This document shows, in pieces, positions 45,368 to 47,685 of a stretch of 64,000 nt of DNA (positions are counted from its first letter, which is position 1; the number at the start of each line of letters is the position of its first letter). The notes beneath the pieces are model-generated. The model had not been told where the DNA came from. It saw nothing but the letters and a program-made list of their open reading frames with translations, and searched no databases. The translations under genes were made by a program, and so were the position numbers. The stretch covers positions 62,001 to 126,000 of the forward strand of contig NZ_JAMTCS010000013.1 of the NCBI RefSeq assembly GCF_024171955.1. The letters run 5' to 3'. The stretch comes from Promicromonospora thailandica. GTDB lineage: Bacteria > Actinomycetota > Actinomycetes > Actinomycetales > Cellulomonadaceae.

Positions 45368-46252
45368 GTGACGTTCAACGAGGGCGGTCAGTTCGAGGGC
45401 GGCCGGGTCCGCAAGGGTGGACGCGGGGCGGTCGGTGCCGGGGTGGGCGGCGGGGCCGCGCTCGTCATCGCGCTGCTGTACATGGTGCTCACCGGCAACA
45501 GCCCCGCCGACATCCTGGGCGGCACCGCCCCCGACGGCGGGGGCGGCGGCGAGCAGGGCTACATCGGCGACTGCACCGCCGAGCAGGCCAACACCGACCC
45601 CGAGTGTCGCCTCAACGCGGCCGTCCAGTCGCTCGACGCCTACTGGGCGACGACCCTGCCGGACCAGGGCGGCATCGAGTACGAGCTGCCCGAGGTCGTC
45701 AGCTTCACGCAGGCCGTGAGCACGGGCTGCGGCAACGCGACGTCGGCGACCGGGCCGTTCTACTGCCCCGCGGACACCACGGTGTACGAGGACCTCGCGT
45801 TCTACGACCAGCTCTCCAGCCAGTTCGGCGCCGAGGGCGGCCCGCTCGCGGAGATGTACGTGACGGCGCACGAGTTCGGCCACCACATCGAGAACCAGCT
45901 CGGCCTGTTCGAGCGGGCCGACCGGTCGGGTACCGGCCCGGAGTCCGACTCGGTGCGCATCGAGCTCATGGCCGACTGCCTCGCCGGCATGTGGGCCGGC
46001 AACGCCGCCACGACCGAGGACCCGGACACGGGCGTCACGTTCCTCGAGCCGATCTCCCGGGAGCAGCTCGAGCAGGCGCTGTCCGCCGCCGCGGCCGTGG
46101 GCGACGACAACATCCAGCGCCGCTCGGGCGGCGACGTGAACCCTGAGGCGTTCTCGCACGGCTCCAGCGAGCAGCGCGTGAAGTGGTTCTCGATCGGCTA
46201 CGAGGGGGGCACCATCCAGGACTGCAACGCGCTGGACGCCGCCACCCTCTGA
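45368..46252 (+). CDS. Neutral zinc metallopeptidase, YpfJ/KPN_02809 family
   Basis: 294 residues. The N-terminus MTFNEGGQFEGGRVRKGGRG is conserved in this family and is followed by one membrane helix (GGGAALVIALLYMVLTG). The zinc site HEFGHHIENQLG and the distal glutamate in RIELMADCLAGMWA are present; two cysteine pairs flank a disulfide-like region (TGCGNATSATGPFYCP). Function is unknown. Its stop lies 16 bp before the thrS leader peptide, whose promoter overlaps the end of this gene. Confidence 0.9.
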   Translation: MTFNEGGQFEGGRVRKGGRGAVGAGVGGGAALVIALLYMVLTGNSPADILGGTAPDGGGGGEQGYIGDCTAEQANTDPECRLNAAVQSLDAYWATTLPDQGGIEYELPEVVSFTQAVSTGCGNATSATGPFYCPADTTVYEDLAFYDQLSSQFGAEGGPLAEMYVTAHEFGHHIENQLGLFERADRSGTGPESDSVRIELMADCLAGMWAGNAATTEDPDTGVTFLEPISREQLEQALSAAAAVGDDNIQRRSGGDVNPEAFSHGSSEQRVKWFSIGYEGGTIQDCNALDAATL

Positions 46253-46255
46253 CGT

Positions 46256-46261
46256 TACGGT
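46256..46261 (+). promoter_or_regulatory. -10 hexamer of the thrS leader transcript
   Basis: TACGGT ends 7 nt before the ATG of the leader peptide, implying a leaderless leader-peptide mRNA. It starts 3 nt after the stop of the metallopeptidase gene. Confidence 0.45.
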
Positions 46262-46268
46262 GAACGGT

Positions 46269-46319
46269 ATGCACCTCAGCGCACGCACGACGACGCCGGA
46301 CCCCTCCGGCGCGCGCTGA
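46269..46319 (+). CDS. Threonine leader peptide of thrS
   Basis: A 16-residue frame MHLSARTTTPDPSGAR contains three consecutive ACG threonine codons (46287-46295), then stops at TGA 46317-46319, 91 bp upstream of a threonyl-tRNA synthetase gene. Consecutive codons for the amino acid charged by the downstream enzyme are the hallmark of ribosome-mediated attenuation. The codons sit just before a small hairpin and a terminator. Confidence 0.7.
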   Translation: MHLSARTTTPDPSGAR

Positions 46320-46360
46320 CCTGCACCAGCAACCAGGCCCCGGAGCTCGCTCCGGGGCCT
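46295..46360 (+). promoter_or_regulatory. thrS transcription attenuator
   Basis: Three mutually exclusive pairings can form. Pause hairpin GCCGGA (46295-46300)/TCCGGC (46305-46310); terminator AGGCCCCGGAG (46335-46345)/CTCCGGGGCCT (46350-46360); antiterminator CTCCGG (46304-46309)/CCGGAG (46340-46345). A ribosome stalled on the Thr codons would cover the first arm and free 46304-46309 to block the terminator; a ribosome at the leader stop would cover 46304-46309 and let the terminator form. The stem is followed by TTCGTCGT. Confidence 0.65.
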
Positions 46361-46410
46361 TCGTCGTACGACGGCGGCGCGCGGGGCGGCTCCCTCTCGA
46401 AGGAGCAACC

Positions 46411-47685
46411 ATGAACGCCCCCGCCACCCCCGTCCGGAACGCCCCCGTGGACCATCGCGAGCTCGGCCGCGACATGCGGATCTTCGACACCAGCCCGTTG
46501 GTCGGCCCCGGGCTGCCGCTGTGGCTGCCCGCGGGCGCCGCCGTCCGCCACGAGCTGGAGCAGTACGCCCGCGAGGTGGCGCTGCGCACCGGCTGCGAGC
46601 CCGTGTACTCGCCCGTGCTCGGCAAGCGGTCGCTGTTCGAGCGGTCGGGCCACTGGGCCAAGTTCGCCGACGACATGTTCCCGCCCATGTCGCTCGGCCC
46701 CGACGGAGCGCCGGACGCCGACCCGCTCGTGCTGCGCCCCGCCAACTGCCCGCACCACGCGCAGATCTACGCCGCCGAACCCCGCTCCTACCGCGACCTG
46801 CCGGTGCGGTACTCGGAGCTGGCGCCGATGTTCCGCGCCGAGCGGTCCGGCGTGCTGTCCGGGCTGAGCCGCGTGCGGCAGATCGACCTGGACGACACCC
46901 ACGTGTTCTGCCGCCCGGACCAGGTCGAGGCGGAGGTGCGCACCGCGCTGGCCGCCGTCCTGGAGGTGCTCGGCACCCTGGGCATCGAGGTGTCGTACCT
47001 GCGGCTGTCGGGCCGGGACGACACCGACCGCTGGCTGGGCGACCCCGGGCGGTGGGCCGCCGCGCAGGCGGCGCTGGCCGCGGTGCTCGACGACCTCGCC
47101 GGGCCCCGCGCCTGGCGCGCCGAGCCGGGCGAGGCGGCGTTCTACGGGCCCAAGATCGACGTCCAGGTGCTCGACGCGCGGGGCCACGAGGAGACCCTGG
47201 CGACCGTGCAGCTCGACTTCAACCAGCCGGAGCGCTTCGATCTGACCTACGTCGCGGCCTCGGGAGACCGGGAGCGGGTGGTGATGATCCACCGTGGCAC
47301 CGTCGGGGCCATGGAGCGGATGGTCGCCTTCCTCCTGGAGCGGCACGCGGGCCGGCTCCCGTTCTGGCTCGCGCCCGTGCAGCTCTGCCTGCTCCCGGTC
47401 TCGGACGGCGCCCCGGGCGACGCTGCCGACGCTCTCGCCAGGGATCTGCGCGGGCGCGGGCTGCGGGTCCGCGTGGAGCGGCACGGGTCGCTGGGCAACC
47501 GCATCCGGCTGGCCCGGCAGCGGCGGGACGCGCTGCTCGGGGTGCTCGGCCCGCGCGAGGCGGACGCGGGGCTGCTCGCGGTGACCGACCCGGCGTCGGG
47601 TGAGCGGTTCTCCGTACCGCTCGCCGACCTGCCGGGCCGGCTCGCCGCCGCGGCCCGCGACCGGGTCGCGCGGCCGCTGTCGTAG
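46411..47685 (+). CDS. thrS: Short threonyl-tRNA synthetase without TGS/editing domains
   Basis: 424 residues against ~640-690 for typical bacterial ThrRS. The catalytic core starts directly: class II motif 1 region GPGLPLWLPAGAAVRHELEQY, zinc ligands in RPANCPHHAQIY, DDTHVFC and VMIHRGTVGAMERM, and motif 2 MFRAERSG. The C-terminal anticodon-binding domain (WLAPVQLCLLPVSDGAPG onward) is complete. The N-terminal TGS and N2 editing domains are absent. GAAGGAG lies before the ATG. It may be a second, inducible ThrRS, for instance a paralog surviving a ThrRS inhibitor, or one specialised for starvation. Confidence 0.9.
   Translation: MNAPATPVRNAPVDHRELGRDMRIFDTSPLVGPGLPLWLPAGAAVRHELEQYAREVALRTGCEPVYSPVLGKRSLFERSGHWAKFADDMFPPMSLGPDGAPDADPLVLRPANCPHHAQIYAAEPRSYRDLPVRYSELAPMFRAERSGVLSGLSRVRQIDLDDTHVFCRPDQVEAEVRTALAAVLEVLGTLGIEVSYLRLSGRDDTDRWLGDPGRWAAAQAALAAVLDDLAGPRAWRAEPGEAAFYGPKIDVQVLDARGHEETLATVQLDFNQPERFDLTYVAASGDRERVVMIHRGTVGAMERMVAFLLERHAGRLPFWLAPVQLCLLPVSDGAPGDAADALARDLRGRGLRVRVERHGSLGNRIRLARQRRDALLGVLGPREADAGLLAVTDPASGERFSVPLADLPGRLAAAARDRVARPLS

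Follow-up and report, generated by a model that had tools for sequence, protein, structure and literature searches.

A short open reading frame with consecutive threonine codons stands directly upstream of a short threonyl-tRNA synthetase gene (thrS) in Promicromonospora thailandica, and it raises the question of whether the supply of threonyl-tRNA is sensed there and used to control the synthetase, and whether such an arrangement has been described before. We examined the locus within the 64-kb stretch of DNA under analysis (the window) and in related genomes. The original prediction had proposed a threonine leader peptide with a promoter element, a hairpin, a terminator and a competing antiterminator. 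On re-reading of the sequence its coordinates for the frame, the three ACG codons, the -10 element, the hairpin, the terminator and the antiterminator were all correct, and folding added one element, the outer stem P1 (46276-46282/46313-46319). The positions of all features are collected in Table 1. The antiterminator CTCCGG/CCGGAG uses bases of both P2 and the terminator hairpin. By the criteria of a scripted frame scan (TANNNT, 5–9 nt, ATG or GTG, 8–28 codons), the leader is the sole frame with three consecutive threonines (TTT) and a TANNNT 5' of it on either strand of the window, and the RNA from 46269 to 46411 had a folding z of -3.9 against dinucleotide shuffles.

Table 1. Features of the thrS leader region, in positions of the window.
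Feature	Position	Strand	Basis or remark
-10 element TACGGT	46256..46261	+	read in sequence; T 13 nt ahead of leader ATG
Leader ORF MHLSARTTTPDPSGAR*, 16 codons	46269..46319	+	ATG 46269, stop TGA 46317-46319
Thr control codons, ACG x3	46287..46295	+	read in sequence
Outer stem P1, UCAGCGC/GCGCUGA	46276-46282/46313-46319	+	folding and partner swapping
Hairpin P2, CGCCGGA/TCCGGCG	46294-46300/46305-46311	+	immediately 3' of Thr codons
Antiterminator CTCCGG/CCGGAG	46304-46309/46340-46345	+	partner swapping and masked folding
Terminator-like hairpin AGGCCCCGGAG/CTCCGGGGCCT	46335-46345/46350-46360; element 46335..46367	+	loop 46346-46349, tail TTCGTCGT
thrS Shine-Dalgarno GGAG	46402..46405	+	possible weak hairpin 46389-46393/46402-46406
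Short thrS, 424 aa	46411..47685	+	catalytic and anticodon-binding domains only

The short thrS gene and its enzyme

The product of the short thrS matched the threonine-tRNA ligase model TIGR00418 with 388.8 bits (cutoff 383.65), and its only domain matches were PF00587 and PF03129. The editing motif C[RKH]GPH was found in none of 60 short relatives, compared with 21 of 33 other ThrRSs. A full-length ThrRS is also encoded in the same genome (open frame of 678 aa). Of the 13 genus members, 12 had a short ThrRS; in the family, 16 of 150 genomes had one, its own included, and all 16 also had a second ThrRS match. As judged from these comparisons, the short ThrRS is a second ThrRS of its genome that lacks the editing domain.

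In a midpoint-rooted tree of 60 sequences (45 short and 15 others, L132 being left out), the short enzymes formed one side of a branch with a support of 100/100. Neighbors among them frequently came from different families, which suggests horizontal transfer of the short thrS between lineages. In the genus labelled g33, which a leader peptide shared with Streptomyces lividans (see below) points to being Streptomyces, the gene was found in 75 of 150 genomes and is hence an accessory gene. A ThrRS match was also present in 25 plasmid records, and in the eight actinobacterial ones that were opened (L191–L198) the Thr leader preceded the short gene in every case. Leader and short thrS appear to move together, plasmids included. 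The hosts of these plasmid-filed copies were Streptomyces, Kitasatospora, Embleya, Streptantibioticus, Nonomuraea and Mycobacterium; records filed as plasmids include megabase replicons, and the 11.9-Mb Nonomuraea record is more likely a chromosome. Two short thrS copies (L155 of genome G354, and one on G651:C504) are each interrupted by a single in-frame stop within the match, due to either decay or sequencing error.

Several positions of the enzyme were compared with E. coli ThrRS. At the position of Gln381, 58 of 60 short enzymes have Leu (2 gaps), and at that of Gln479, 58 of 60 have Thr or Ser (2 gaps), while Gln occupies both positions in all 33 other ThrRSs; 1nyq, the best solved relative, likewise has Leu and Thr at these positions. 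A zinc-free backup enzyme was considered and rejected. The zinc ligands, which we take to be at E. coli positions 334, 385 and 511, are kept (Cys in 60/60, His in 58/60 and His in 58/60 short enzymes, with 2 gaps at each His), and counting on the E. coli sequence ruled out that a His-to-Ser change marks a lost zinc ligand. The active-site zinc of ThrRS is described as universal (PMC4787780). Self-resistance to borrelidin or obafluorin seems less likely, as there was no class-specific sign at either of two positions, 489 and Gly463, that are given in PMC4389257 and PMC11252418. Gln stands at position 489 in 58 of the 60 short enzymes, the other two having gaps, as it does in 27 of 33 other ThrRSs. 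At the position of E. coli Gly463, 58 of 60 keep Gly, one has Ala and one a gap, so that the Ser for Gly463 of ObaO-type self-resistance occurred in none of these 60. For Streptomyces coelicolor, a threonyl-tRNA synthetase gene, SCO3778, has been listed among the targets bound by sigma-E exclusively under ethanol stress (PMC10771440).

Conservation and specificity of the leader

The original prediction had proposed that leaders of orthologous short thrS genes be aligned for conserved Thr codons and covarying stems. In a first set of 57 actinobacterial short thrS genes, comprising 53 from the best 80 of 396 relatives and 4 from further genomes, every leader had at least two consecutive Thr codons (57/57), and a TTT leader frame preceded none of the 27 other genes among the same best 80. 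With later loci added, the Thr codons proved to be conserved throughout, with at least two in a row in 94/94 parsed leaders and three in 87/94, the other 7 having only two. The leader peptide itself is conserved, mostly as ...TTTP..., and the first Thr codon among the 87 TTT leaders is ACG in 74, ACC in 9, ACT in 3 and ACA in 1. A Thr leader was present at all 11 short-thrS genomes of a 396-genome phylum sample, our own included, and at 28 of 29 further g33 loci, the 29th beginning near a contig end and being read off-position. Duplicate records of named loci (L005, L006, L008–L016, L019) were dropped, as was L131, in which the script found no P2. L167 (read off-position), L160 and L161 (upstream unread) and L199 were kept outside the leader comparison; L154 and L156 were outside the 94 leaders, and L156 and L187 are one gene.

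The promoter element is conserved as well. Of 57 leaders, 56 have a TANNNT that begins 12–14 nt ahead of the start codon, compared with 4 of 1140 control windows, a spacing that fits a leaderless leader mRNA; L079 and L163 lack a -10 at the usual position, and a consensus scan of the locus called no promoter. Since the leader ATG lies at the expected transcription start, the leader mRNA is probably leaderless, with transcription beginning at or beside this ATG.

A covariance model built from relatives gave 73.2 bits at the locus, whose own sequence is included in the model, and among 150 candidates scored in the same genome the next were the antisense of the locus (22.8 bits) and a match of 19.5 bits. 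Model matches at E <= 0.001 were obtained in 29 of 396 genomes of the phylum. In 12 of these 29 the match precedes a short thrS, and in 17 no thrS was found in the flank. None of the 18 loci of those 17 genomes combined a -10 with a frame that has a run of Thr codons, and L139, whose frame encodes TTTP, lacks the -10; these matches resemble plain terminators or chance, and the possibility that the same leader stands before other genes was rejected for these 18 loci. A ThrRS match at E <= 1e-92 was found in 15 genomes, apparently of the same 396-genome draw, and was short in 11, including one genome with a Thr leader that the covariance model had missed (G457). The other four had open frames of 628–725 aa, taken as full-length ThrRS, and no leader was seen upstream of the two of these that were read. 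At the full-length thrS locus of our own genome (L002), Thr codons lie within the N-terminus and a separate leader was not seen. The Thr-rich stretch near this N-terminus reads TEATTTTATTTG, and several other family members have a similar one.

The occurrence of the leader also bears on the origin of the hairpin at 46335-46360, which might be the terminator of an upstream zinc-peptidase gene, the Thr-rich frame being accidental. The stop codon of that gene, at 46252, is indeed just 17 nt 5' of the leader ATG. However, among 11 loci inspected the peptidase lies upstream in the Promicromonospora locus only, and therefore the terminator is not that of the upstream gene, while the leader is present in all 11 (upstream ORFs were picked by length and GC3 and without family search, and some are unsure). 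At L084 the upstream ORF is divergent and the leader is still there. Given also the conserved -10 and the covarying pairings, we regard a peptidase terminator as very improbable.

A T-box or other known riboswitch that senses uncharged tRNA-Thr directly would have a parallel in thrZ, the second thrS of Bacillus, which is under T-box control. Yet no Rfam family reached its gathering score in the window, and searches at E up to 5 returned only weak matches to five families, the T-box not among them. As the leader is also short (~100 nt) and contains a conserved coding frame, direct tRNA sensing is scarcely credible here.

Alternative pairings and the proposed switch

Clustering of the 94 leaders at 80% over their first 75 nt gave 38 clusters, which are not independent lineages, and the 3' side of P2 was paired with the terminator 5' arm of its own or of other clusters. 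The antiterminator pairing energy averaged -12.14 kcal/mol for own and -10.72 kcal/mol for swapped partners, and 0 of 10,000 swaps were as good (z -4.3, n=38 clusters), in a test that does not preserve phylogeny and whose controls have the same relatedness. For five such controls, made from reversed or other segments, z was -2.0 (239/10,000 swaps), -0.5, +1.9, -0.6 and -1.1. For P1, 0 of 10,000 swaps were as good (z -4.0, n=38 clusters), compared with z -0.8 and -0.25 for two reversed controls. In a set of 35 labelled groups, from which L082 was left out (it is included in the 38 clusters), the signal was weaker for the antiterminator (213/5000 by run length, 73/5000 by energy) and stood at 0/5000 for P1; in 9 of these 35 groups the antiterminator has just 4–5 contiguous pairs. 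The partner sets include CTCCGG/CCGGAG, TCCCGG/CCGGGA (L150), ACCCG/CGGGT (L149) and CCCCGG/CCGGGG (L079), with compensating changes mostly from distant leaders (the phylum sample and the g33 loci). P2 is nearly invariant across the leaders and hence gives no covariation signal. In the terminator, 4 pairs changed on both sides in an alignment of 44 sequences, which was made without L082, the extra Promicromonospora rows and the extra g21 rows. Covariation of the stems was therefore borne out for the antiterminator, and for P1 in addition, whereas the hairpin after the Thr codons hardly varies. A mutually exclusive antiterminator, as predicted from the sequences, is backed by this covariation.

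We also folded the leaders with the terminator 3' arm absent and with assumed ribosome footprints masked. When a ribosome was placed so that its A site held the first Thr codon, at least 3 antiterminator pairs formed in 36 of 38 clusters, compared with 2 of 38 when no ribosome was placed. With the ribosome at the stop codon, the antiterminator was seen in 2 of 38 clusters, a number that rose to 5 when the forward footprint was extended to 15 nt. Three strict cut-offs were all satisfied in 27 of 38 clusters (26 with the larger footprint). These folds are in keeping with the proposal that a ribosome stalled on the Thr codons and one at the stop codon would favor opposite structures. Once completed, the terminator retained most of its pairs in all three printed states in 36 of 38 clusters, L058 and L082 losing it.

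The terminator-like hairpin is GC-rich, strong and conserved. It lies where the original prediction had placed it, but the tail, TTCGTCGT, with 4 T in 8, is U-poor and weaker than had been implied, and the consensus scan of the locus called no terminator. Because the completed terminator is stronger than the antiterminator and the tail is U-poor, control must be kinetic.

The poor U tail also favors a different kind of control, in which the leader acts on thrS translation via a hairpin with the Shine-Dalgarno GGAG, or in which Rho terminates instead of the hairpin. A stem of at least 4 pairs including the ribosome-binding site was found in 33 of 36 clusters, and in the swap test of own against other partners it reached 24/10,000, with 7422/10,000 for the reversed control. 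Overall, however, the Shine-Dalgarno hairpin exceeded shuffled upstream sequence only modestly (z 2.1), in 7 of 36 clusters no such hairpin was scored, and the alternative pairing that covaries involves the terminator arm. We consider translational or Rho-dependent control unlikely; the Shine-Dalgarno hairpin is perhaps a second layer of control. At our locus, the hairpin GCTCC/GGAGC at 46389-46406 includes the Shine-Dalgarno of thrS.

Our preferred reading, to which we assign a probability of roughly 0.87, is ribosome-mediated attenuation of transcription, of the trp/thr type, with specificity for threonyl-tRNA and with an auxiliary ThrRS as its target. From parts that are conserved, that covary in the antiterminator and P1, and that are tied to one gene clade, we infer leader translation, stalling, termination and read-through as the steps of this attenuator. 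Transcription would start at or beside the leader ATG. With ample Thr-tRNA, the ribosome would pass ACG-ACG-ACG, arrive at the stop codon (46317) and mask CTCCGG (46304-46309), so that the antiterminator would be blocked and the terminator (46335-46360) would stop transcription. If no ribosome is present, the P1/P2 hairpin would sequester CTCCGG, and the terminator would form too. When Thr-tRNA is scarce, a ribosome stalled on the Thr codons would mask the 5' arm of P2 and free CTCCGG, which could then pair with CCGGAG (46340-46345) ahead of the emergence of the terminator 3' arm. With the antiterminator formed, RNA polymerase would read through into the short thrS.

Relation to known systems and meaning

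The leader of the enterobacterial thr operon, thrL, consists of a Thr-codon leader with a terminator and an antiterminator and controls biosynthesis genes, whereas the leader described here precedes a ThrRS gene, and a search of the window against Rfam gave nothing at the gathering threshold. An attenuator-controlled synthetase gene is found in trpRS1 of Streptomyces. In actinobacteria, ribosome-mediated attenuators have been described before trp operons, leuS and trpS2 (PMC1262725). These share with our leader a cognate-codon leader peptide, a terminator, an alternative hairpin and synthetase targets, but differ in serving amino acids other than Thr. The same 2005 survey, in its available text, reports no conserved RNA structure upstream of actinobacterial threonine genes (PMC1262725).

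For Streptomyces lividans TK24, a leaderless Thr leader, thrL, is listed before thrS (PMC8079986), and the peptide of L189, a leader before a short thrS, is identical, letter for letter, to the thrL peptide MKRVRPFLETTPGFVPAR in Table 4 of that paper. A Thr leader before thrS therefore has a precedent; the original prediction had known of none described for an editing-less ThrRS. While L189 precedes a short thrS, SLIV_19410 of S. lividans was compared by leader peptide alone; the thrL-thrS pair of S. lividans very likely belongs to the same family as the leaders found here. The earlier listing concerns one species, its authors call termination unclear, and the available text of the account makes no mention of a short enzyme, an antiterminator or other genera (PMC8079986). 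In the literature covered, which lay mostly outside subscription journals and was in part available as excerpts, we found no description of the antiterminator, of the breadth of the family or of the link to an editing-less enzyme. S. lividans thrL is the single earlier annotated member that we found there of a well-supported family whose kind is known.

Conditional second synthetases for threonine have other forms. Bacillus thrZ encodes a second ThrRS under T-box control that has kept its editing domain. In Anabaena, the second ThrRS T2 is associated with low zinc and is impaired in editing, with the editing domain kept (PMC9437257, PMC4787780). Both are conditional second enzymes alongside a housekeeping one, as the short ThrRS would be, but they are governed by other sensors and retain the editing domain that the short ThrRS is without. 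It is conceivable, although we think it rather doubtful, that the short enzyme is a starvation-induced, error-prone ThrRS that lacks proofreading, is switched on when Thr-tRNA is scarce and may also charge tRNA-Thr with serine. If so, any charged tRNA-Thr would close the switch, since Ser-tRNA-Thr would also serve the Thr codons of the leader, and accuracy would be traded for continued translation.

With these data, a single annotated Streptomyces leader becomes a regulatory family across many actinobacterial families, unmatched in Rfam, and this family provides a test set for attenuation on probably leaderless mRNA in high-G+C bacteria. The arrangement suggests that these bacteria retain an editing-less ThrRS for conditional use as a second enzyme, governed by Thr-tRNA supply, and it raises the question of whether threonine codons are mistranslated upon threonine starvation or loss of ThrRS.
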